Shown in pieces: positions 4,116 to 20,614 of a stretch of 64,000 nt of DNA. Every line of letters starts with the position of its first letter. Position 1 is the stretch's first letter. The notes below the pieces were generated by a model that was not told the origin of the DNA, searched no databases, and saw only the letters and a list, made by a program, of their open reading frames with translations. The stretch is from positions 1 to 64,000 of the forward strand of contig NZ_WHSB02000001.1 of NCBI RefSeq assembly GCF_010994755.1, read 5' to 3'. This DNA is from Shinella lacus (lineage in GTDB: Bacteria; Pseudomonadota; Alphaproteobacteria; Rhizobiales; Rhizobiaceae). The position numbers and the translations under genes are program-made.

Positions 4116-5642
4116 TCAGCCCGCAACGGCTTGTTCTGCCTGCTTGGCGGCCTTCGTGTTGACATAGGCGGCAGCACTTCGCCCCGCAATGCGCCCGAAA
4201 ACCGCACCCGCCATCAGGCCCGTGCTGCCGGGATAGTTGAAGTAGTAAAGCCCGCCCACCAGTTCACCGGCGGCAAAAACGCCGGAGAGTGGCTGATCTT
4301 CGATATCGAGAACCTGCGCCTCCGTATTGATCTTCAGGCCACCGAACGTGAACGTGATGCCGCAGCCGACCGAGTAGGCCTCGAATGGACCTTTCTCGAT
4401 CGTGTTGGCCCAATTCGACTTGGTGACCGCGAGCCCTACCGTCGACTTTCCATCCTTGATGTTCGGATCGAAGTCGACATCCTTCTTAATGGAGTCATTG
4501 TACTCACGGACGGTGTTGAGGAAGCCGTGATAGTCGACGTCCCCCATCTTGTCGGCCAGTTCCTCGAGGGTATCGGCCTTCACCTTGGTGGCGCCGCGCA
4601 TCTTGTATTCATCGCGAATGAGATGCGCGACCTGGGCATCGAACACCTGCCACGCATAGCTGCCGGGCTGCTGGAGCACGATCCTGCCATACTTGGCATA
4701 GGTGTAGTTGCGGAAGTCAGCCCCCTCGTCCAAGAAGCGTTTGCCCTCGGCATTGACCATGATGCTGTAGGGGTAGCTGTGGCGATAGCCCGCGGAATGC
4801 TGGCCATCGACATCGCCGAAATCGTTCGCATAACGCTCCCAGGAAACTGAGTGGCAGCCAGACCACTGGCCGTAGGACTGCGCGCCGAAGTCGAGCGCCA
4901 TCTTGATGCCGTCACCCGTATTGTAGCGGGTTCCGCGAACCTTGGCCATTTCCCAGCCCGGGCCGAGATAGCGGGCACGCCATTCGCGGTTGGCCTCGAA
5001 GCCGCCGCAAGCGAGAACCACGGCCGTGGCGTGGATGTCTTCCTCGATGCCATCCACGATGACCCGAACGCCGCCGACGGCTGCGCCGTTGCGCAGGAGC
5101 GAGACAGCTCGCGTGCCGTAGCGGATTTCGACGCCACGCTTCTCCGCGGCACGAATTTCGGCCTCGACGAGACCGGCACCACCGCCATTGGCATAGATGA
5201 CCACGCCACCGAAGAACTTGAACCGGCCGTTGTGGTTGAAGGCCTGGCGTCCGTAGTTCGGCACAAATTTCACGCCCTGCTGCATGAGCCAGTGAACAGT
5301 GTCGGTGCTGTTGTTGACGATGATGTCGGCGAGTTCCGGGTCGATGTGATATTGCGTAATGCGGCCCAGATCGTCGAAATAGTTCTCTGCGGTATATTCG
5401 CCGAAATCCGTTTTTGCGATGTCCTCGTCCGACAAGTCGGGAACGATCTTCTTGATGTCGGCAGCACCGTGGTGGACCATGCGGAAGCCGCCGCCCGTAA
5501 AGGCGGAATTGCCTCCGCGCTTGTGCTCCGGCGCGCGCTCGAGCACGAGAACGCTTGCTCCGCCTTCAACGGCCGAGAGTGCTGCGGACAGAGCCGCGTT
5601 TCCGCCGCCGACAACGATCACATCGTATTGCTTGCCACTCAT
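4116..5642 (-). CDS. FAD-dependent dehydrogenase, TcuA/fumarate reductase flavoprotein-like
   Basis: A 508-residue flavoprotein. The start at 5642 (MSGKQYDVIVVGGGNAALSA) is chosen because GGAGGAG lies about 10 bases upstream; an in-frame ATG at 5678 adds 12 unlikely residues. The N-terminal GxGxxA dinucleotide fold, the HKRGGNSAFTGGGFR segment and the C-terminal GELVGGLYYFNYPGSTGLM segment match the fumarate reductase/succinate dehydrogenase flavoprotein family, and the tricarballylate dehydrogenase TcuA in particular. No signal peptide is seen, so it is probably cytoplasmic. It may desaturate a saturated di- or tricarboxylate, feeding the LeuCD-like hydratase. An operator dyad at 5733 lies 91 bases upstream. 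Confidence 0.85.
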   Translation of the reverse strand: MSGKQYDVIVVGGGNAALSAALSAVEGGASVLVLERAPEHKRGGNSAFTGGGFRMVHHGAADIKKIVPDLSDEDIAKTDFGEYTAENYFDDLGRITQYHIDPELADIIVNNSTDTVHWLMQQGVKFVPNYGRQAFNHNGRFKFFGGVVIYANGGGAGLVEAEIRAAEKRGVEIRYGTRAVSLLRNGAAVGGVRVIVDGIEEDIHATAVVLACGGFEANREWRARYLGPGWEMAKVRGTRYNTGDGIKMALDFGAQSYGQWSGCHSVSWERYANDFGDVDGQHSAGYRHSYPYSIMVNAEGKRFLDEGADFRNYTYAKYGRIVLQQPGSYAWQVFDAQVAHLIRDEYKMRGATKVKADTLEELADKMGDVDYHGFLNTVREYNDSIKKDVDFDPNIKDGKSTVGLAVTKSNWANTIEKGPFEAYSVGCGITFTFGGLKINTEAQVLDIEDQPLSGVFAAGELVGGLYYFNYPGSTGLMAGAVFGRIAGRSAAAYVNTKAAKQAEQAVAG

Positions 5643-9965: not shown

Positions 9966-10009
9966 GCGTATCCTCCTCCTGATCGCGCAATACCGTATGT
10001 CTCATCTAG

Positions 10010-10024
10010 TGAAACGGTATTTCA
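10010..10024. promoter_or_regulatory. Operator-like dyad TGAAA-CGGTA-TTTCA
   Basis: Same half-sites and spacing as at 2033 and 5733 but with a different spacer, located 45 bases upstream of the TctC start. Conservation of the arms and not the spacer supports a protein-binding dyad, most simply for the cluster's IclR protein. Confidence 0.6.
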
Positions 10025-10170
10025 TATATAAGCACAGAGTTCAGCGCCGTGCAAATGCTTTGCTCGGGCGAGCCGACGCTGAGCAAAATCGACACTGCGA
10101 TTGCACACGGAACGTCCTTGAGGCAGATCAGAGCCGCGCGGCATTCGACGCTTTGAGTGATGGGATACTG

Positions 10171-10353
10171 ATGGCGACAACTGAGCAGAAGATTGCTAGG
10201 CGACCGATTAAGAAGTCTTTTGGGGCCTATTTAGCTTCAAAAATGGCCGAAAACACCGCCGGCCTTATTGCAGAACAACGTCAATCGACCACCGAAAATA
10301 CGAAGGCACGTGCGAATATACTGCATTTTTTCCAAAAAAACCGCACGGGCTAG
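10171..10353 (+). CDS. Possible small lysine- and glutamine-rich protein
   Basis: A 60-codon frame starting MATTEQKIARRPIKKSFGAY and ending in a TAG. A GATGGGA stretch lies a few bases upstream. Amino-acid use looks protein-like (charged, amphipathic), unlike neighbouring frames. No family is recognised. It could be a small gene or the remnant of a larger one. Confidence 0.3.
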   Translation: MATTEQKIARRPIKKSFGAYLASKMAENTAGLIAEQRQSTTENTKARANILHFFQKNRTG

Positions 10354-10979
10354 AGTAAGAAGATAACGATCGATAATTTCGCGAGCGTATAATTTTCAGT
10401 CTTCAATGGGCTAACGACGCCTATCGCTGGAAACAAGCCAGAAAGCACCGCTCCGAATACTCATGTGGACGCCCACCCGCAGAATTCAATAGCGAACGAT
10501 TGCTTCGATATCCACGCTGTGAGACGACAATACACATTGGATATGCGGCGAAAGAACCGCCCCCCTTGTTTAAAGCCGTCGACAAACCAATGCCCGCTTT
10601 CTATTTCAGATGGAGGTCAAGGCATACTGAGAGAAAAAGACTTGCTGCTTCATGCAGAGCGATCGAGTGAAATTATAGAGTACGCGCATCTTTGGATGCG
10701 CGCAGTAGTCACGCTCAATTTGCAGATCTTTCAGAAATGACATTCGAGATCTGTCATTCACTCCTCGACTTCCCGCCCCGATAACCTTGTCGGACCTATG
10801 CCATCGCTTCCTTTCTTCACCTGGATATGGCTTGAGCCTCACTGGCGGAAAAATGGATGACCAAAGCGTCTTTCGAGAGACGCGGCAAAAAACAAACCGG
10901 TTTAAGCTACTATTCATTTCCTGTGAACAAGCCGCTACGATTGAGCGGACTATTGTAATACGTTATGGCGTCTCTCGCC

Positions 10980-11135
10980 TTAGCCATGCTTATAGAAGCC
11001 AATCTGTTGGCCTCCCAACTCAGACCCCTTGAGCAATAGCTCGTACATTTTTCTCCACTCGCGGATCAAGAGGTCTTCTAGCGGCGACGTAGGAGCCGAC
11101 TTCAGCTGGTCGTGTTCCTCGCGCCTGAGCCACAT
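10980..11135 (-). CDS. Possible small protein or gene remnant
   Basis: A 51-codon minus-strand frame, too short for routine calling. It begins MWLRREEHDQLKSAPTSPLE and continues with DLLIREWRKMYELL. The same frame stays open upstream for about 24 codons (QRWRVWAAAAPSYIRATN) before a stop. Codon use resembles real coding sequence, so it may be the tail of a decayed gene. No family is recognised. Confidence 0.3.
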   Translation of the reverse strand: MWLRREEHDQLKSAPTSPLEDLLIREWRKMYELLLKGSELGGQQIGFYKHG

Positions 11136-12475
11136 ATTAGTTGCCCGTATATAACTAGGTGCTGCGGCAGCCCAAACCCTCCATCTCTGGCCAACGTGAA
11201 ACGCCCTTGCACACTATCTCACTTCTTCTCTGAGACGAACAGAATGAGGTCTATCCTTCCGAGATCGAGCTAACCTCCGCTGCACATGATTCACTAATTT
11301 CCCCTCACGGTGAGGTGTCTAAATGCTTGGCCAAGATAAGTGCCCTATAAAGGAGAGGCGCGAACAATTTTGGGATGCGCCTCTAACACCCGGCTATGAC
11401 AAGCGCAAAATTCGCATGGAGACCGTACCAGTAAAAAGGAGCGTGTTGCCGATGTACCTACTGCCCTGCTATTTATCTGGGAAATACATTCTCAGAGCGG
11501 TATCTTTTTCACGCGTCTGTGATGCTAATCGATACCGTTAGATCCGGAGACCCCTCTTTTCGCGACGAAGAGCGAGTTTATTCGAGGCCGTCCAATTTGC
11601 GAAGACATAAACCAGTTAGAGCACGAATATTGCAAGTTCCGATCGGCTTAATTGATCGAACCGAGACCGGAGATCTTGATCTTCGCAACATGATGGCGAA
11701 TTGAAACGACGTATCTAGCCGGTTCTCTTGGCAGCCCTGTGACACAACAATGATGCGCGGCCGCTAACAGAAAGCGACTACATTGCATGCCGCGCTCATT
11801 TCCGGCGAGAATAGAATTTGTGGTCATTTTTATGCGATGGCGGGCACTCCCTGCTTCGACATGGCACTGTTAATACTTCACTACGTACGGAAGACCGAAC
11901 CTACGATGGCCAAATGTGCACTCAAAGGACGGCAGAAGTCATGGCGATGAAAAGGCCCAAATCTCAAAGGGCGCGGACGAGAAATAATTAAGCGCCGGCA
12001 TCACGCGCTAGCTTGAGTCGGAATGAGGTATAACCAACCGCGTTGAAGTCAAATTTTTGTCCCCATTCACGCTGTCTTCACTCAATCCCGTATCGCCGCG
12101 TGCTGTTTCTAACGATTGCAGTTTCCAACGCTCAGAACGCCACGACAGCCTTCCAAAAATTTAAATACGATCCGAGTGTGTTTAGATTTTTTGCGCCCTT
12201 TGTGACCGTGGTTTCTAGTTCGAGGCACGAATGCCCCACCTTTTATACTTTTGGGCAGCGAGACCTAGAAGTCGCCGGTGATCTTTAAAGTAATAGATCG
12301 TTCAGATCGCTCGAAGATCGAACGCCGTTTTAGAACATAGTGGTCTTGCGCACCTCCTCGTCCACCGATTTATCTCTCTGTATGCGATTGTAGTCGCGAG
12401 AACGCATCGCGAGATTTCACGTTGGGAAACGAGCGTGAACTATTTGTTTTCGACACCGCGAACCTGGCTTCAGAC

Positions 12476-12491
12476 CCTGACAGCTGTCAGG
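12476..12491. promoter_or_regulatory. Palindrome CCTGACA-GC-TGTCAGG, possible second parS
   Basis: A perfect 16-base palindrome, extended by one G-C pair on each side (12475-12492), and identical to the repB-proximal palindrome at 17654-17669 except for the two central bases. It is followed by seven T residues, so a plus-strand rho-independent terminator is the main alternative. No gene is recognised upstream that would need one. The shared 7-base arms favour a common DNA-binding protein, RepB being the obvious candidate. Confidence 0.5.
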
Positions 12492-13464
12492 GTTTTTTTC
12501 ACTGCTCAGAAAGCTCAAGGCTCGGCTTACCACCGCCGCCTTTTGCTGTTAGCGCCAAAAACAACACGCTCGATCAAGTAGGGACGGAATATTTTGCGCT
12601 TGCCGATCCAAAAATAGCGGTTCACGGCTGCGCATGAACTGCACAACTCCCGATGGCTGTAGAAGAGCCAAATTAGCTAAAGGGTCTTAGCCGGCTAATA
12701 AAATCTGATAACGTGCACATTGAGATACGCGCGGCCGAAATCATGGCCTTCGGAGTGGTGGCACAACAAATGCGCACGACATATTAGCATCACTTGAGTA
12801 TGAGCCCTAGAGTTGTCGAGGCTTCCACCCATGGACGTCGTCCACTCTCAAGTTGGCTCTACACGGCACAGCCGCGCACATTGCTTAAGCTCCTGTAAAG
12901 CAGATCTTTTCGAATTGGGATTCGCTGTGACAAGAAGATCATGAAAAATGACAAGAGGCAGAAAAATCGTCAAGAAGTTTCACCGATCTGACGCCAGACG
13001 CGCGGGGTGGATCATGAGCGTGAGGTAAGCGCTCAATAGGAGCAACGAAATCCTAGCAAGATAAAACGAACTGGCTCAAGGCCGACAGATCACGCGGCTA
13101 AGCCGTTAAAATGGCAAACAGATTGGCCATGGAGCGAACTATCCGGGAATACTGTGCGATATCGAACGGAATTTTTAAAGAGGTGGCTATCTGGATCATT
13201 CGGCCGAAGCATGATGAAGCCGCTCCGGCTTCTCGATCTCTTTATCTGCGAGTCGAATATGCAGCCCTGCTGGGTACCGTCGGCGCATTGAAATCTTCTT
13301 CTCCACCTCATAATGCAACGTTATCCATAAGATCATCGAGGCCGCGCCAGTGAATCCGCACTGAGGACGGTACAAAGCATTGTTGGACTTGCCGCGAGCC
13401 CAAATCCTGACCAAAGCAGTAAACGGGGAACAAGACCCACGACCCGAGCGATCGCCGCGAAAGC

Positions 13465-13494
13465 AGAGGCAGGGGCAGGGGCAGGGGCAGGGCT
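13465..13494 (+). repeat. Short tandem repeat of AGGGGC
   Basis: Three perfect AGGGGC hexamers (13471-13488), flanked by one imperfect unit on each side (AGAGGC and AGGGCT). It lies 40 bases left of the IS1-family element. No function is apparent. Confidence 0.8.
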
Positions 13495-13543
13495 GCGTAT
13501 GTTAACGCATGACGTATCTGCCCCCCTCAGGGGGCATTGATTA

Positions 13544-13921
13544 CTATCGACTGTTTCGGATGAGATGCCTGTTGAAGAACAGGTCGAGGGTGATGTCGAG
13601 CATCTGAATGGTTTTGGAATAGCGCTTGGATCGGCGATTGAGGCGGGCGAGGTTGTCGCGAATGGATGAATTTGCCGATTTAATCAAATGGGTCCGCGCC
13701 TTGGTCTGTTCGTGCCGCTCAGGCCCGCCATTCCGCTCGAAGGCTAGCTGATAGCAGGAGTTCGCATCGGTGAAGACCGTCGCGATGTCGCCAACAGCCA
13801 GCTTGATCAACGTGTAGAGGGCGAGAGCAATGGAGACGCCGTTGTCCCCGATGTGATAGGCCACGGCACGGCGCTGGTGCCGGCTATAAGCAGTCCAGAT
13901 GACCGCCCGGTGCTGTTTTTT
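13544..13921 (-). CDS. IS1-family transposase, -1 frame C-terminal part
   Basis: About 125 codons read in the -1 frame after a run of eight A residues (13916-13923). It carries the second part of the IS1 catalytic domain: AVAYHIGDNG, a TDANSCYQ segment with the second acidic residue, and SSIRDNLARLNRRSKRYSKTI, typical of InsB C-termini. It is expected as a fusion to the upstream frame by ribosomal slippage. Confidence 0.75.
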   Translation of the reverse strand, partial: KKQHRAVIWTAYSRHQRRAVAYHIGDNGVSIALALYTLIKLAVGDIATVFTDANSCYQLAFERNGGPERHEQTKARTHLIKSANSSIRDNLARLNRRSKRYSKTIQMLDITLDLFFNRHLIRNSR

Positions 13922-14244
13922 TTGACGAACGTGCAGATTTCGTCCATCTCGATGATGTCGGGTCCGGTGTCGTAGATCGGCGACAGCGCGTTCTTCGCCA
14001 CCATGGCGTCATGGGCTTTGCGGACCCAGGTGATAACGGGGGCAGCAGCACCGGTAAAGCGGGCGATCTTGCGGATGCCGACATTGTGGAGGTGCATGCC
14101 GAGGGCCAGCGCCTTGGTCGCGGCGCTGAAATTCGGCGTCCACTCGAGCGAATAACACTGGCAGGACCGGCAATGGAAGCGCTGCACGCCCCCATGCCTG
14201 CCGCTGCGACTGATGTCGCAACTCCCACAATGCCGACACACCAT
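13807..14244 (-). CDS. IS1-family transposase, zero-frame N-terminal part
   Basis: Starts at 14244 (MVCRHCGSCDISRSGRHGGV), 8 bases after AGGAGGG. The CxxC...CxxC zinc ribbon and helix-turn-helix (NVGIRKIARFTG) match InsA, and IEMDEI supplies the first catalytic aspartate of the InsB domain. The frame continues about 37 codons past an A AAA AAC heptamer in the correct phase for -1 slippage, giving a 145-residue product without frameshifting. In classical IS1 the heptamer lies at the end of insA, so here it is placed later. Confidence 0.75.
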   Translation of the reverse strand: MVCRHCGSCDISRSGRHGGVQRFHCRSCQCYSLEWTPNFSAATKALALGMHLHNVGIRKIARFTGAAAPVITWVRKAHDAMVAKNALSPIYDTGPDIIEMDEICTFVKKNSTGRSSGLLIAGTSAVPWPITSGTTASPLLSPSTR

Positions 14245-14342
14245 TTCAAAGCCCTCCTGAACGTGGAGCGCTATCATCACCCGTCAGCCTTTCCTGAACA
14301 TCGCCCTCCAGCCGCCAGTCCTCCTGCGCGGCTAGTCAATGC

Positions 14343-14982
14343 AAAGGGTCACCCACTCCGCGCGGCGTGGAATGGAATGGAATAGCCTTGCGCGCCTTTT
14401 CTCCGCGAATAATGGCACGGGATTTGGCTTGGTACACCAAACGCGATTGCGAACGTTTAATCAAAAGACCTCGTTCGGCATTTCGGAAAGTCTCGCAATG
14501 GGCAAATTCCCCAAAAAGCTGTGAAATGGATCAGAAGCCGGCAGTCACCTTTTTTTAAATAGCGCGCCGGTCCCCGGCTCAACATATCGCCGGTGGAGCG
14601 AGCTCGACTCGTCATCTAGAGCTCCCGGATGTCCCTTATTTTGTTGCTTCAAGCGGCGAGGGGCCGCGTCGCAAGCGACATTCAAGACGATGGGAGATGG
14701 TTTCGAGTTTCATGGCCATTCAATTGACGCTCCCCAATTTTTGAATTTGATAGGGGAATGTGTCTCATTAGGACATGTCTTCATACTGTATTGTAGAATA
14801 CTCTAATTCACTGAGCATGTGCTGGCTGGATACGTACTCTGTAACCCGAGCCCCAGAACTTCCCCAAAATTTTGGTAGAGTTCGCCGCGTCAAGCAGAAG
14901 GACGGAATAAACCGTGCACGGTTTACAGACGAGTAGATTGTCAAAATGACGAAGGGGCAGGAGAGCTTCAAGAGAACAGCCA
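14343..14982. other. Non-coding gap between two insertion sequences
   Basis: About 640 bases between the IS1-family and IS3-family elements. Short frames on both strands show no family resemblance and no coding bias. No structured repeat was noticed. It probably belongs to the same decayed segment as 9966-13533. Confidence 0.5.
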
Positions 14983-15015
14983 TGAATAGCCCCGAGTTTT
15001 GTAGACACCCTTGGG

Positions 15016-15912
15016 TTAGATTTTCTGCTGCCTTTCGAACTCAACGGGCGACAGCATTCTGTTTCTGACGTGCTTGCGTTTCGGGTTGTAGAACATCTCG
15101 ATGTAATCGAACACATCCTGGCGCGCTTCATCGCGTGAACGGTAAAGCCTGCGACGTATCCTTTCTCGCTTCAGAAGATTGAAGAAGCTCTCGGCCACCG
15201 CATTGTCGTGGCAGTTGCCGCGTCGGCTCATCGAGTGAACCAGATTGTGGTACCTGAGGAACGATGCCCAGTCCATGCTGGTGAACTGCGAACCCTGATC
15301 TGAATGGATCAGCACCTTGTCCTTCGGCTTTCGCCTCCACACCGCCATCAGTAGAGCCTGCAATACAACATCGGTGGTTTGGCGGCTCTGTAGTGCCCAA
15401 CCGATCACACGACGCGAATAGAGGTCGATGACAACGGCGAGATAGACGAAGCCCGCGCAGGTTCGAATGTAGGTGATGTCCGTCACCCAGGCAGTGTCTG
15501 GATCCGTCACGTCGAATTGCCGGTCGAGCGTATTATCGACGACGACAGACGGTCTGCCGCCATAGATGCCGGGACGGCGTTTGTAACCGATCTGCGCCTT
15601 GATCCCGGCGAGACGCGTCAGACGCGCGACCCGGTTCGGGCAGCACATCTCTCCCTGATCGAGAAGATCGTCGTGCAGCTTGCGATAACCGTAGACCTTG
15701 CCGCTCTCTTCCCATGCCTTCAGGAGTAGATCGGTCTGTCGCTTGTCCTCGCTGGCCCGCATGCTCAGCGGGCTCTTCAGCCAGGTGTAAAATCCGCTGG
15801 GATGAACCCGCAGAAGACGGCACATCGTCCGCACTGAAAACTGCAAGCGATGCAAGGCAATGAACGCGTACTTCACTTTGCATCCCTGGCGAAATACGCG
15901 GCCGCTTTTTTT
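15016..15912 (-). CDS. IS3-family transposase OrfB (integrase domain)
   Basis: An rve-type integrase with an N-terminal HTH_21 segment (GYRKLHDDLLDQG) and the DDE residues in DTAWVTDITYI, LIHSDQGSQF and DNAVAESFFNLLKRE, with the usual D-D-35-E spacing. It is translated mainly as an OrfAB fusion by -1 slippage on the A7 run at 15906-15912. The reading frame is intact to its stop. Confidence 0.9.
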   Translation of the reverse strand, partial: KKSGRVFRQGCKVKYAFIALHRLQFSVRTMCRLLRVHPSGFYTWLKSPLSMRASEDKRQTDLLLKAWEESGKVYGYRKLHDDLLDQGEMCCPNRVARLTRLAGIKAQIGYKRRPGIYGGRPSVVVDNTLDRQFDVTDPDTAWVTDITYIRTCAGFVYLAVVIDLYSRRVIGWALQSRQTTDVVLQALLMAVWRRKPKDKVLIHSDQGSQFTSMDWASFLRYHNLVHSMSRRGNCHDNAVAESFFNLLKRERIRRRLYRSRDEARQDVFDYIEMFYNPKRKHVRNRMLSPVEFERQQKI

Positions 15913-16142
15913 AGGATGTCTCGCTCCTCGGTGACGCGAGCCAGTTCCTTCTTCAACCGCCTGATCTCCTCGGCCTCGTCGTTGCCCTTGGCGTTCGACG
16001 ATGCAAACTTCTTCTTCCATTCGTAGAGGGAATGCTGGCTCACCCCGAGCCGCTGCGAAACCTCCGCAACCGGATAGCCTCGCTCCGTGATCTGGCGAAC
16101 AGCGTCACGCTTAAATTCTTCGCTGAAATTCGATTTGCTCAT
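15873..16142 (-). CDS. IS3-family OrfA (helix-turn-helix)
   Basis: An 89-residue OrfA with a transposase_8 HTH (AVRQITERGYPVAEVSQRLG) followed by a leucine-zipper coiled coil (EIRRLKKELARVTEERDILKK). It binds the element's ends and regulates transposition. The slippery run A AAA AAA G near its 3' end allows the -1 shift into orfB. Confidence 0.9.
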   Translation of the reverse strand: MSKSNFSEEFKRDAVRQITERGYPVAEVSQRLGVSQHSLYEWKKKFASSNAKGNDEAEEIRRLKKELARVTEERDILKKAAAYFARDAK

Positions 16143-16226
16143 GATGCTCTTCCTGCCTCAAAATTAGGAAAGAAGGCGTCTACAAATCTAGGGGCTATTC
16201 AACTTATTGTCTCGGAGGGAAGGGGA

Positions 16227-16247
16227 GGGCTCTCTTTTCGGGAGCCC
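16227..16247 (-). terminator. Hairpin downstream of repC
   Basis: GGGCTC and GAGCCC arms around a 9-base loop, 11 bases past the repC stop. No strong U tract follows on the minus strand, so termination is only plausible. Confidence 0.35.
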
Positions 16248-16257
16248 CTTCACACAT

Positions 16258-17472
16258 TCACCCAGCCTCCCGTGCGCCCTCACCGCCAGATCTCAACAGC
16301 GCCATCAAAACCGGGCCGAGTGAAAATTCTCCGCGGCGGGCGCGGGAGGTTAGGTTGCGCAGGTATCCGCCGGGTGAATTGATGTGGCCAGCTCGTTCGA
16401 GGATGCAGGCGAGGGTGACTGCGGCGTTTTCGGATCCCATGACCTCGCATGCTTCCTCGTAGGCCGACGGGCTTATTCCCAGCATCGAGCGGGCAACGAT
16501 CGCTGCAGACATCATGTCGCGCCAGTTGCCAATCGTGCCGGCGGGTCCGTATGCGCTGATCTCCTGACAGGCCTTTAAGACCAATCCCAAAGGGAAGGGG
16601 AGGGGTGGTTGTGCATTTGGCTTCAGGTTTTTGCTCGGGATCGCCCCCAGCTCGGTTTCTGAGCTTGGTTCAAGTTCACGTATGGATTCGGTTTTTGAAT
16701 TCTGTATATGCTGCCCACTTTGAGCGGCATTGCTGCTCGTCTTCTTCGAATTGTCGAAGTTTTCCAGCATGTTGACGACCTTCTCCTGCAGGAGCGTCAA
16801 TTCTGCGCTAATTTTGATCGCGTCCGCCATCGTCGGGGCACGGGAAATTTGGCTTATGAGGCTGATATAGATGTCTTCGATCGCCGCCCAGTCGCCTGGA
16901 GCCCCCTCCTCTATCGCGGCGCTAATCAACTTGCGTACGTCGCGGCGGCGGATGGTGAGCTCCTCCTTTGCGCGGCGGAAGGCGGCGCGCTCAGCGGCGA
17001 CCTTCTGTGCCATCTCCGCGAGTTCCTCGGCGCGCAGCAGGAGAGGGGATATATCGAAGCCAAAGGCGGATTCGATCGTCCCGCTCCTATCCTTGCGGGC
17101 GTAGCGCTTGCCGTTGGCGCTGTCCTTGCGGATGACCAGGCCTGACTCGACCAGAAAGGCAAGGTGCCTGCGCAGCGTTGCGCCCGCCATCCCGTGGGCG
17201 CGGATGCTCAGCTGTGCGTTCGATGGGAAGACGACGAGTTGCGCGTCCTGGCGCAGTTCGTTCTCCGGATAGAAGCTCAGCAAGGCGTCGAGTACGGCCA
17301 GGCTACGGTCTTGCAGCCCGAGAAGCACACGGGCTTCGGACGCGTCCCGAAAGACTTTCCATTTGTCAGCCCGCTTGCCCGCGGGGATCTCGGCCGTTGC
17401 GACTTGCTGCCTGACCAAGGCAAGCGAAATCGGCCGCCGCCCGAAGGGCGTCGTTACATTTCCACTCTGCAT
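16258..17472 (-). CDS. repC: Replication initiator RepC
   Basis: A 404-residue RepC of the repABC family, with the family N-terminus (TTPFGRRPISLALVRQQVA) and a DNA-binding N-terminal half. A low-complexity middle (SKKTSSNAAQSGQHIQNS) precedes the conserved C-terminus (GGYLRNLTSRARRGEFSLGP). RepC is the essential initiator, limited by RepAB autorepression and by an antisense RNA in the repB-repC gap. The known origin of such replicons lies within repC, where an AT-rich stretch is present (see 16680-16760). The length is normal and the gene is intact. Confidence 0.95.
   Translation of the reverse strand: MQSGNVTTPFGRRPISLALVRQQVATAEIPAGKRADKWKVFRDASEARVLLGLQDRSLAVLDALLSFYPENELRQDAQLVVFPSNAQLSIRAHGMAGATLRRHLAFLVESGLVIRKDSANGKRYARKDRSGTIESAFGFDISPLLLRAEELAEMAQKVAAERAAFRRAKEELTIRRRDVRKLISAAIEEGAPGDWAAIEDIYISLISQISRAPTMADAIKISAELTLLQEKVVNMLENFDNSKKTSSNAAQSGQHIQNSKTESIRELEPSSETELGAIPSKNLKPNAQPPLPFPLGLVLKACQEISAYGPAGTIGNWRDMMSAAIVARSMLGISPSAYEEACEVMGSENAAVTLACILERAGHINSPGGYLRNLTSRARRGEFSLGPVLMALLRSGGEGAREAG
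16680..16760. other. Probable replication origin inside repC
   Basis: The middle of repC contains a locally AT-rich stretch with the short dyad CTTCGA-ATTG-TCGAAG (16744-16759). In characterised repABC plasmids the origin maps to an AT-rich segment in the central part of repC. Placement here is by analogy. Confidence 0.4.
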
Positions 17473-17565
17473 TTTCTCTCACCTTCGACAAGGCAAAAGA
17501 AATCCGCTCACCAAAAACGGTGCCAAAGACGCTTGACTAAGATTCGTGGAAATGCGAGTCTCGAA

Positions 17566-17618
17566 GTGCTAAATCAGAGAGAGGCTTCCACGACGGCAAC
17601 GTTTGGGGGGCCTTTTTC
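17566..17618 (+). ncRNA. Candidate repABC antisense RNA (ctRNA/incA)
   Basis: The 198-base gap between repB and repC carries, antisense to the operon, a TTGACT box (17533-17538). About 50 bases later comes a stem of GGCTTCC with GGGGGCC (two G-U pairs) followed by TTTTTCTTTT (to about 17617). This is the position, orientation and size of the counter-transcribed RNAs that limit repC expression in repABC plasmids. The -10 element is weak and the 5' end is estimated. Confidence 0.55.
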
Positions 17619-17653
17619 TTTTGCGACGCTTCCTTTCTTCCATATCCGGGCAA

Positions 17654-17669
17654 CCTGACAAATGTCAGG
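17654..17669. promoter_or_regulatory. Candidate parS: palindrome CCTGACA-AA-TGTCAGG
   Basis: A perfect palindrome with a 2-base centre, one base beyond the repB stop codon. The same arms recur at 12476-12491. RepB (ParB) proteins bind 16-base palindromic centromeres near repABC operons, and their sequence differs between incompatibility groups. RepA and repB overlap here, leaving no repA-repB gap for parS. Not followed by T residues on the minus strand, so not an evident terminator. Confidence 0.55.
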
Positions 17670-17670
17670 A

Positions 17671-18699
17671 TTACCCCTTGTTCCGCTGACGGGAGAAACG
17701 CTCGGCAAGTGCCGGCAGCTCCTCCTGGATAAATTTCAAGAACGCGGCGCCCAGTTCGCCCTCGCCGGAAATCCGGACATCCTTGGCCGAGGCAATATAG
17801 GCGCCGAGCGCCTTGCCTTCGTTGTCGGAGAGGGTAACGGCGCCACCGCGCGGGCTTGGGCTCGACTTCACCGCATTCAACGCCTGCTGGAAGCGCTGGT
17901 CGGAGTTCTCGATGCGGTCGCTTGCCTTCGACAAAGCGCGGCGCACAGCTTCAAGGGCGCCAGAGCTGCCTGAAATCGTCTTGGCCAAATCCAGCCAGCG
18001 CGGCCTGCCGATTTTCGGCGCGCGGCCGATCGCTTCGATAACATCGCCCGGAACCGAGCGGTAGACGCTTCGCATGCGGGCGAGTTCGGCATCCTCGATC
18101 GAAAGCGCGGCATAGATATCGCGCGGCCGGATGCCGGCATCGTCCATGCGCGATGCAAACAGCGCACGCTCGATCCATGACAGGTCCTGCCGGCTGGCAT
18201 TCTCGATACCCTGGGCGACAACCAGGTCGTGATCGGTCATATCGACTTCGATCGCCCGAACCGGTTGGCCGAGCTCCAAGGCAGCACGCCATCTCCGGTG
18301 CCCATAGACGATCTGGTAGCGTCCGGCAGCCGAAGGGTGTTTTCGAACCTGCACGGGGACCTTCTGGCCTTCCGTCTCGATCGAGCGCTTCAGCGTCTGG
18401 AAATCGCTCGCGTCGTCGTCCGGCAATCGATCCGGAAAAGGGGAGGGGTCGATGATCTTGGGGTCGAGGTCGTGGATCGACGCTCCGCCCGCCTCGACGA
18501 TCGCCCGCAAGCGATCACGTTCCGCCCGGATGTCATCGATCGCCCGATGGGCCGCACCGATGACGCCGGCGGCGACGCGTGTCGTTGGGGCAGGGGAGGG
18601 CGCTGCCACAGGCTCGGGTGCCGCGGGCTCCTCGCTCTCCAGTTCAGCCGAAAGCAGGCCGAAGCTTGCAACGATGGATTTCCGTGGTGTCTTGCTCAT
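17671..18699 (-). CDS. repB: Partition protein RepB (ParB family)
   Basis: 342 residues from the ATG at 18699 (MSKTPRKSIVASFG), which overlaps the repA stop as ATGA. The ParB nuclease-like domain is present (VQVRKHPSAAGRYQIVYGHRRWRA split around residues 112-135, including the GHRR motif). A helix-turn-helix follows (QDLSWIERALFASRM and the next helix), then the RepB C-terminal domain. RepB binds the plasmid centromere and partitions the replicon with RepA; together they repress the operon. Candidate parS palindromes are at 17654 and 12476. Confidence 0.95.
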   Translation of the reverse strand: MSKTPRKSIVASFGLLSAELESEEPAAPEPVAAPSPAPTTRVAAGVIGAAHRAIDDIRAERDRLRAIVEAGGASIHDLDPKIIDPSPFPDRLPDDDASDFQTLKRSIETEGQKVPVQVRKHPSAAGRYQIVYGHRRWRAALELGQPVRAIEVDMTDHDLVVAQGIENASRQDLSWIERALFASRMDDAGIRPRDIYAALSIEDAELARMRSVYRSVPGDVIEAIGRAPKIGRPRWLDLAKTISGSSGALEAVRRALSKASDRIENSDQRFQQALNAVKSSPSPRGGAVTLSDNEGKALGAYIASAKDVRISGEGELGAAFLKFIQEELPALAERFSRQRNKG

Positions 18700-19919
18700 C
18701 CACGCCCCCAACTCGTGTTGATCAGGCGAACGATCGCCTCATTGACGGCGTCCACCGCCTCGCGGGCCCGCTTGTGCGTCTCGCGGCCGATCTGGCCCAT
18801 TTCGAGTTCGTACAGCGAGCGTTTGCCAAGCCCCGCCGCCTCGACGGCCGTGCTTTCCACCGCTGTCGGCAGCAGGACATCCGCCCCGAACAGATGGCGC
18901 AGCATCGCGACCACCTGCGACTGCGGCGCATCGTTCGGATCGTGCCGCGTCACAAGATAACGAATGAAATCCTGATCGAGCTGCGCGCCGCTGTCGGTCA
19001 AGACGCTGATAAGGTCGCCCATCATGAGAAGGAACTGGCTCATCGACGCGACGTCCAGCATGGCCGGATGCACGGTGATGATCATGCTCGTCGCCGCGTA
19101 GATCGCGCTCAGCGTCAGGAAGCCAAGCGAGGGAGGGGTGTCCAGGATGACGACATCGTAGTCGGCCTCCACCTCGGCGAGGCAGAGTTTCAGCCGCTCG
19201 AAGAAGATCGCGCCGGAACTCGACCTGTTGGCAAGGACCCGCGGGGTCTCATGCTCATACTCCATCACTTCCAGATTGCCGGGAATGAGGTCGATGCCGT
19301 CGAAATAGGTTTTGCGGATGATGTCGCGTATCGGCCGCCGTTCGGCATCGTCGTATCGAAGCGCCGCATAGATCGTCTCGTTGGCGCCGACATCGACCTC
19401 CGGCTGCGAACCGAACATCGCCGACAGCGACGCCTGCGGATCGAGGTCGAGCGCGAGAACGCGGTAGCCTTGCAGGGCGAGAAAATGCGCGAGATGAACG
19501 CAGGTCGTCGTCTTGGCGCTGCCGCCCTTGAAGTTGGCGATGGCGAGCACCTGGAGGTGTTCTCCCGGCCGGCGGCGCGGCAGGAACCGCAGGGCGTCCG
19601 CCGGCTTCTGCTTTGCGAACAGTTCCCGCAACTCGTTGATTTGCTGGAGCGTATAGACCCGATGATTGTTCTCCAGCCGGCTCGGCACGGGACCGCGGCC
19701 TTCGCTCGACATCAACTTCAGCGTCGAATCGGGTATCGATGTGAGCTTGGAGACTTCATTCGTCAAAAATTGCCGAAGAATCTTTTCCGACTTCGGCGGA
19801 TACATACGCGTTCTCAGCTGCTGGAGCTGTCCGGACAACAGCGTGGCATGGCGCGTGATCTTGCTTCCTGCATCTTCCTTGGAAGGAACCACTGTTTCTA
19901 CCTGTTGCGCTATCGCCAT
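18696..19919 (-). CDS. repA: Partition ATPase RepA (ParA family)
   Basis: 407 residues from the ATG at 19919 (MAIAQQVETVVPSKEDAG), preceded by AGAGGG; the open frame extends 27 codons further upstream without support. An N-terminal winged-helix/MerR-like region (YTLQQINELRELF) is followed by the deviant Walker A motif NFKGGSAKTTT and the Walker B region VVILDTPPSLG. RepA drives segregation with RepB and autoregulates repABC. First gene of the operon. Confidence 0.95.
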   Translation of the reverse strand: MAIAQQVETVVPSKEDAGSKITRHATLLSGQLQQLRTRMYPPKSEKILRQFLTNEVSKLTSIPDSTLKLMSSEGRGPVPSRLENNHRVYTLQQINELRELFAKQKPADALRFLPRRRPGEHLQVLAIANFKGGSAKTTTCVHLAHFLALQGYRVLALDLDPQASLSAMFGSQPEVDVGANETIYAALRYDDAERRPIRDIIRKTYFDGIDLIPGNLEVMEYEHETPRVLANRSSSGAIFFERLKLCLAEVEADYDVVILDTPPSLGFLTLSAIYAATSMIITVHPAMLDVASMSQFLLMMGDLISVLTDSGAQLDQDFIRYLVTRHDPNDAPQSQVVAMLRHLFGADVLLPTAVESTAVEAAGLGKRSLYELEMGQIGRETHKRAREAVDAVNEAIVRLINTSWGRG

Positions 19920-20614
19920 TTTTCCCTCTTGGCGGCCTATCGCCGGTTTACCGGCCGGCACTCGCCAAGAGATAGAACACGATTCTATAAGCCCGTCCAT
20001 GTGTTGGCGGTTGACAATCGAACCGAATGGGCGATCTTCGGTCGCGGATAGGTGTTAATCAACTGATATTATTGTCTTTCTCGCAAAAGTAGTGCGAGCT
20101 TCCGTTTGTAACTCTCCACACTTTTGACACAGGTAGTCCTGCCAGGTGGAGGCCTACGGGCTCAAATGCCGCCGCGCGAGAGAATCGGGAATCAGAATCA
20201 CCGGAACCTCCTGTCCGCGACAAGCCTGTTGAAATTGGCAAATCATCGTCGTTCCACGCAGGGGCAAATGACGCCCGCGGGTCGACTGCCAGTGCCGGCA
20301 ATGTCAGCGTGATAGCGGCACCGGACACCAGTCGCACCTGATCGCGGTTCGTCCGTTTCCATGACATTTCCCGATATGCCAGCTGTGTTCATCGTCATGC
20401 CGGCAAGCCTCGACGACCCAAGCCGCGATCAGCCGCAACTGGTGTCATGCACAACTGCTGGCCATGCTTGGGATTTTCTCGATCCGGCGCTGCCGAGATT
20501 CGAAAATATGCCACCGGCGTGATGTTCGACGACGGGAACTAATAGGAGAGGGCCGGAACACGTTATGTTCCGGCCCTCTAATAGCTTGAATTATAAAATG
20601 AACGTCCGGCCGCA
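19920..20614. other. Upstream region of repA
   Basis: About 700 bases without a convincing gene. It should contain the repABC promoter. A CTCGCA...TGCGAG dyad (20080-20098) lies about 160 bases upstream of the repA start and could be a RepA/RepB operator. A strong hairpin at 20547-20579 closes the CoA-transferase operon. The small minus-strand frame at 20059-20367 has no recognisable features. Confidence 0.5.
20547..20579. terminator. 14-base-pair hairpin after the CoA-transferase operon
   Basis: A perfect stem of AGAGGGCCGGAACA with its complement around the loop CGTTA, 36 bases beyond the pcaJ-like stop. Neither side has a long T run, so it may act as an RNA-stabilising or rho-assisted terminator and insulate repABC from the upstream operon. 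Confidence 0.55.

Follow-up and report, generated by a model that had tools for sequence, protein, structure and literature searches.

Which DNA sites serve RepB, the partition protein of the repABC replicon carried by Shinella lacus? The window analyzed here, the first 64,000 nucleotides of contig NZ_WHSB02000001.1 (981,422 bases in all), contains two palindromes of the form CCTGACA-NN-TGTCAGG, one directly after repB and one at a distance, and the initial annotation proposed that together they form a RepB-type two-site centromere. Position, co-occurrence with close RepBs and co-variation with the RepB recognition helix all support that proposal. Judging from sequence comparison, both palindromes are very probably parS sites of this replicon, a two-site centromere of a C-first class that RepB would bind. 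We favor this reading because the pattern is rare genome-wide, because its placement is conserved, because it co-occurs with close relatives of this RepB, and because its arms co-vary with the recognition helix. The two sites are:

12474..12493 (core 12476-12491), no strand: distal parS site (putative), a 20-bp perfect palindrome, ACCCTGACAGCTGTCAGGGT, with 9-base arms and the center GC
17654..17669, no strand: proximal parS site (putative), CCTGACAAATGTCAGG, with 7-base arms and an atypical AA/TT center (AA on the + strand)

A position check in the window placed CCTGACAGCTGTCAGG at 12476-12491 and CCTGACAAATGTCAGG at 17654-17669. As first described, the two share the same 7-base arms and differ in their centers (GC versus AA), and each is a 16-bp palindrome in or beside the repABC operon. 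The description of both as perfect holds for the distal site, where perfect pairing extends over 20 bp, and fails for the proximal site, which is palindromic in its arms alone, its center not being self-complementary. The proximal site lies 1 base beyond the repB stop codon; the distal site lies 3,766 bp beyond the repC stop and 5.2 kb from its partner.

Across the whole 7,043,451-base genome, CCTGACA-NN-TGTCAGG occurs in exactly 2 places, both beside repABC, and a reversed control pattern occurs in none. The earlier statement that there is no third full copy thus stands for window and genome alike; allowing up to 3 mismatches, the window contains just two further, weak matches, against a chance mean of 1.79. 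Since 394 genomes of the family contain the reversed pattern just once, a pair 5.2 kb apart is far beyond chance. By eye, the flanks beyond the two palindromes are unlike each other, and two tandem-repeat scans found no repeats.

Occurrence and placement among relatives

Among the 394 family genomes the pattern was found in 16 (32 places). A RepB matching at E<=1e-120 was found in 12 genomes, with up to 5 candidates scored per genome, and 11 of these 12 carry the pattern, versus 5 of the 382 others (Fisher p 7e-17, kinship ignored). The single close-RepB genome without it, G365, has a pair of CTTGTCAGCTGACAAG in its place. The S. lacus genome itself encodes five further repB-like loci (30-39% identity; a sixth match, at 32%, is weak), and the arms found there are of other types: GTTTGCA, CTTAACA (two copies) and, with one mismatch, GTTAACA. 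Two of the five loci showed no clear palindrome. The palindrome search used here, in G365 and for the sites inside repB described below considered only perfect arms around a core with C and G, and further asked for one of three features: two copies, the core CAGCTG, or GTT combined with C.GC.G at the core.

The initial annotation had suggested looking for these arms at other repABC loci with a similar RepB. In a sample of 61 loci encoding RepB relatives, an exact copy was present in 37 within -4/+6 kb of repB and in 38 over the whole stretch examined, and 28 loci held two or more. Placement was then tallied with the window and one-mismatch copies included, restricted to a few arm types chosen in the course of the analysis. 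By this count 38 sites lie at the repB end, and in 28 of these the repB stop codon is the TGA within CCTGACA; 14 lie 11-35 bp beyond the repC stop; and 37 lie further downstream of repC, many as pairs ~130-145 bp apart. Extended palindromes like that of the distal site also recur at copies downstream of repC. In 8 complete plasmids, of which W01 and W02 share the region and are not independent, 14 of 14 exact sites fall within 3.5 kb of repB; the sole plasmid without an exact site, W05, carries CCTGTCAGCTGACAGG twice after repC.

The nearest RepBs in our tree, in which the window's own place is weakly supported, have downstream copies 1.7-6.7 kb beyond repC, and in locus L214 the site pair stands in DNA without annotated genes, with no transposase annotated between repC and the sites. 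Insertion sequences do lie between the two S. lacus sites, as had been pointed out; that they caused the separation is doubtful, and given these relatives no such event is needed.

Several other arrangements were seen along the way. Locus L139 (G393:C37) has four exact CCTGACAGCTGTCAGG copies, 208-235 bp apart, at 470-1139 of a 3.3-kb contig in a genome whose RepB is of this class. Downstream of repC in L047, 4.1-6.5 kb beyond repB, a 2.4-kb stretch contains eight sites of the CTTGTCA type, some of which have one mismatch. Replicons of the CTTGTCA, CTTGGCA and CCTGTCA classes often have two parS-like sites, the first inside the coding region of repB and the second just beyond it; in L151, L152, L154, L156, L158-L161 and L163 the internal site is ~256-274 bp before the stop.

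RepB residues and arm bases

All 342 RepB columns were scanned against each arm base over 94 rows (~51 after weighting) and again over 102 rows, the latter including 8 held-out rows; L164 and L166 were never added. Excluded from the scan were L189 and L199, whose core differs, L195, whose arms look like chance, and any row for which no site had been identified; L063, with a broken repB, was left out of both scan and tree. Residue 202 ranked first of the 342 columns for arm base 5 over both row sets. Residue 196 was the top column for base 2, and residue 203 ranked 2 to 3 overall for base 1.

Within the C-first clade the identity of residue 202 (E or A versus D) predicts base 5 (A versus T or G) in 84 of 84 rows. 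They combine 7 plasmid rows with an earlier 77-row subset; rows were selected for D, H or A at residue 203 and Y, K or R at residue 196, with no selection on residue 202. A FastTree phylogeny of the 84 rows, from which the DNA-binding columns had been excluded, places all four changes of residue 202 on the branches where base 5 changes; two of these four branches are single-row tips (L047 and L208). D203A shares its branch with the change of base 1 from C to G, and D203H shares its branch with that of base 2 from C to G. Counted by site, the residue-202 rule holds for 59 of 62 sites at or in the repB end and for 85 of 87 downstream sites.

In an AlphaFold2 model of RepB the recognition helix spans residues 203-215 (mean pLDDT 77; 85-93 in the blocks around it), with residue 202 as its N-cap and residue 203 as its first residue. 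We regard E202 and D203 as putative specificity residues. Fold comparison of the model, disregarding rows with Z under 8, returned ParB, Noc, KorB and SopB structures, as expected; the alignment to solved ParB stops before the recognition helix. RepB residue 203 aligns with the glutamine of the Noc motif GKGQS, which we take to be position 173 of the ParB-parS/Noc-NBS study, where ParB R173 contacts parS (PMC7383237). In that switch (PMC7383237), as in RepB, the residues that vary together with the arms are those where the recognition helix begins; it differs in that the RepB case is one of natural co-variation, with residue 202 and base 5 as the tightest pair.

Predictions for held-out genomes were written down before their sites were looked at, using a pattern that demanded C at base 1. 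The predicted T at base 5 was clean in 7 of 10. Thirteen plasmid loci added later (L204 and L206-L217) fit the base-5 rule by their main sites, L206 having additionally one downstream site with a base-5 mismatch; of these loci, L214 is a repeat of G365 and several more are closely related to earlier rows. In G205, G136, G262, G348 and G034 we also observed several imperfect CCTGTCA-like sites that were dispersed over the repB contig or a different contig, in contrast to the tight clustering seen elsewhere.

The locus and the alternative readings

The genes around the two sites and the DNA between them are listed below.

17671..18699, - strand: repB, ParB-type partition protein of 342 aa (TIGR03454, E 3.3e-95, 319 bits versus a cut-off of 201.5)
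18696..20000, - strand: repA, ParA-type ATPase (longest open reading frame; start possibly 19949; TIGR03453, E 2.9e-179 for 18696-19949)
16258..17472, - strand: repC, replication initiator (NF040974, E 3.3e-163)
17578..17624, + strand: ctRNA_p42d, antisense RNA in the repB-repC gap (Rfam RF00489, 71.5 bits)
17470..17538, - strand: S-element, repC leader structure (Rfam RF00490, 78.1 bits)
14983..16201, - strand: IS3-type insertion sequence between the sites (27-nt inverted ends, 89% complementary; rve and HTH_Tnp_1 domains)
13544..14280, - strand: broken IS1-like transposase open reading frames between the sites (PF03400 in one, E 5.9e-5, just under the curated cut-off; no match in the other)
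10000..13500, no strand: AT-richer, gene-poor stretch around the distal site (GC 0.48-0.54)

RepB also scores above the curated cut-offs of PF07506 and PF02195. The overlap of repA and repB at 18696-18699 leaves no intergenic space, confirming that there is no room for parS between these genes, and the proximal site lies between the antisense RNA (ctRNA) and the repB stop. GC content on the repABC side is mostly 0.57-0.66, versus 0.48-0.54 over 10.0-13.5 kb, where the three open reading frames checked gave no Pfam match. A short GGGGCA repeat, noted by eye at 13470-13495, adjoins the IS1-like remnant, and a strong 15-pair terminator-like hairpin at 20547-20579 stands between the region upstream of repA and CoA-transferase-like genes (identified by eye).

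A number of observations weigh against the parS reading or against parts of it. In the window, the canonical consensus GTTNNCNGCNGNNAAC has no match near repABC with up to 1 mismatch. Among the 61 relatives, 23 loci lack an exact copy; these include loci with the arm types CGTGACA, CTTGTCA, CCTGTCA, GTTGACA and near-variants, and in seven of the 61 no site was found on the stretch examined, which was in some cases short. Residue 203 comes first for base 1 only in the subset picked partly by residue 203. Two clade rows were assigned leniently: L036 (D202), whose proximal site is CCTGACA but whose two distal sites are CCTGTCA, so that the majority decided, and G034, where the site matched only by half. 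A one-mismatch departure from the 202 rule is seen at four more sites in the clade. Outside the clade the rule is loose: among all 102 rows, D202 is paired once with A, E202 three times with C, H202 nine times with A and once with T, and S202 once with A. In the held-out set the prediction half-matched in G034, no repB-abutting site was found in G136 or G348, and an eleventh genome, G294, had no site on the predicted contig; a further rule, linking K at residue 196 to T at base 2, failed in all five genomes of one clade, which have C, and was dropped.

The pattern also occurs in five genomes without a close RepB (G205, G311, G368, G375 and G398), the G205 copy lying 78 kb from a 51%-identical repB. 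The G368 copies deserve separate mention. Two copies of CCTGACAAATGTCAGG lie at 5176 and 5310 of locus L140, between divergent APH-family and 3-hydroxyacyl-CoA dehydrogenase genes, and the first has 22 bases in common with the proximal site of the window, whose AA center both share. These AA-centered copies are probably operators of another regulator, and because they look like that, a bare match to the pattern is no proof of parS.

How, then, do other readings fare? The alternative that survives best would give the distal copy two roles, as a RepB loading site and a transcription terminator, which we consider rather unlikely. It accommodates all the evidence for parS together with the following structure:

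12472..12499, + strand: terminator-like hairpin and T run over the distal site, a possible second role (10 pairs; -15.5 kcal/mol, z -3.58)

In favor of this reading, too, the downstream copy of three Shinella relatives stands 18-19 bp beyond the repC stop, with a mismatch in one of them. The T run, however, reads as part of a symmetrical AAAACCC...GGGTTTT extension that is common at downstream copies, near and far from repC, and is partly kept at the repB end.

That the proximal copy is instead an operator for another regulator, or an element of ctRNA or repC control, with no centromere involved, appears improbable. Its AA/TT center, present in 1 of 81 exact CCTGACA sites, would suit such a role, as would the resemblance to the G368 pair, and a regulatory role has been suggested for the repB-repC site of the plasmid pAMI4 (PMC9040568). 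Nonetheless, the proximal copy stands where relatives keep parS, as one of the 38 sites at the repB end, and its arms are identical to those of the distal copy.

A role for the distal copy as a terminator, possibly bidirectional, unrelated to partition had been named as the reading that could overturn the centromere. Terminators conserve structure rather than sequence. The hairpin and T run are real, a terminator scan does pick the distal copy, and relatives' copies near the repC stop have long A/T-flanked stems, with arms of at least 11 in 12 of 14. But the scan is weak, returning 18 candidates in 12 kb versus 12.8 expected, and here it is the sequence that is kept, switching with the RepB recognition helix at the downstream sites. 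Palindromes with similar flanks are also present within the operon, at the repB stop; copies come as pairs or triplets ~2-9 kb beyond repB; and no recognizable gene ends just before the distal copy, the open reading frame at 12043-12288 (+) having no family match. Because the same sequence stands at the repB stop, where termination would cut off repC, an exclusive terminator function is very improbable, and we rejected it on the co-variation of downstream copies with RepB and the fit of the T run to the symmetrical extension.

Chance, or a shared remnant of mobile DNA, can be set aside: the insertion sequences between the copies suggest the latter, but two copies in 7 Mb, both at repABC and with dissimilar flanks, in a layout common to many relatives, speak against either, and the genome-wide count and 394-genome control rule out chance.

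Known parS systems and rhizobial plasmid compatibility

If the two palindromes are parS, RepB, a member of the ParB family, would bind both through its helix-turn-helix, and RepA, of the ParA family, would move the RepB-DNA complexes such that each daughter cell receives the replicon. Segregation and incompatibility would act through both sites. The distal copy, with its GC center and 20-bp palindrome, may be the stronger loading site; the proximal copy, with its odd TT center beside the ctRNA gene, is perhaps weak or mainly regulatory, as proposed for the pAMI4 repB-repC site.

The closest functional precedent is a Sinorhizobium plasmid. On S. meliloti pSmeLPU88b, CCTGTCAGCTGACAGG was shown to be parS by incompatibility; like the Shinella sites it is a 16-bp palindrome with outer CC/GG, lies downstream of repC and departs from the consensus, and unlike them it has T instead of A at arm base 5 (PMC10194956). 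The same CCTGTCAGCTGACAGG occurs twice after repC on accessoryA of S. meliloti Rm41, whose RepB is 69% identical to that of Shinella and has D202 in place of E202, matching the T at base 5.

The layout has a counterpart in Paracoccus aminophilus pAMI4, where a parSBC site after repB and a distal 3parS were characterized by electrophoretic mobility shift (EMSA) and stability assays (PMC9040568). There too one site follows repB and the distal sites lie in long AT-rich non-coding DNA, and the Shinella distal copy has the same inner core, TGACAGCTGTCA; the outer bases differ (GT..AC instead of CC..GG), and pAMI4 has three distal copies 11.5 kb beyond repC, versus one in Shinella 3.8 kb beyond (PMC9040568). 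The Shinella stretch is not a 3parS-like locus: it is AT-rich and gene-poor, yet it holds a single copy in the window.

The repABC parS consensus quoted in the same study is GTTNNCNGCNGNNAAC. The Shinella sites resemble it as 16-bp palindromes near repABC, and the inner C.GC.G is kept at the distal copy; they differ in their first two bases (CC versus GT), and the proximal copy has no GC center. They lie outside the GTT class, and we claim no membership of it. Because another rhizobial plasmid has a working parS that does not fit it either (PMC10194956), we read the consensus as describing one class. The survey in the pAMI4 paper took palindromes matching GTTNNNNGCNNNNAAC, and since that pattern excludes C-first palindromes, it would have missed the class (PMC9040568). 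In the Rhodobacteraceae, two compatibility groups are set apart by a single symmetric base change (PMC5613091); PMC4492784, PMC2783167 and PMC13274422 supplied general background only.

Searches with CCTGACAGCTGTCAGG, CCTGACAGTTGTCAGG and an 18-mer gave no match in the main text of searchable papers, supplements and subscription papers being outside the search, and no title or abstract opening in the literature searches described a C-first class. Koper et al. 2016 is said to deal with RepB discrimination of parS. As far as these searches go, the class, its layout (at the repB stop codon and downstream of repC) and the residue-base pairing are new.

Taken together, we offer one broader proposal, which we hold to be possible rather than probable. 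Rhizobial repABC plasmids may contain a large C-first parS lineage (CCTGACA, CCTGTCA, CTTGTCA, CTTGGCA, CGTGACA) missed by consensus-based surveys; its main centromere would be a cluster of sites past repC, frequently two or more of them ~2-9 kb beyond repB; and its incompatibility type would be switched largely by one or two RepB residues where the recognition helix starts, 202 (base 5) and 203 (base 1), with compatibility predictable from RepB sequence. Genes for symbiosis, virulence and catabolism reside on large rhizobial plasmids, whose coexistence depends on parS and RepB. The pairing of bases with residues would amount to a RepB specificity code testable by single-residue swaps, and the compatibility of such plasmids could then be read from sequence.

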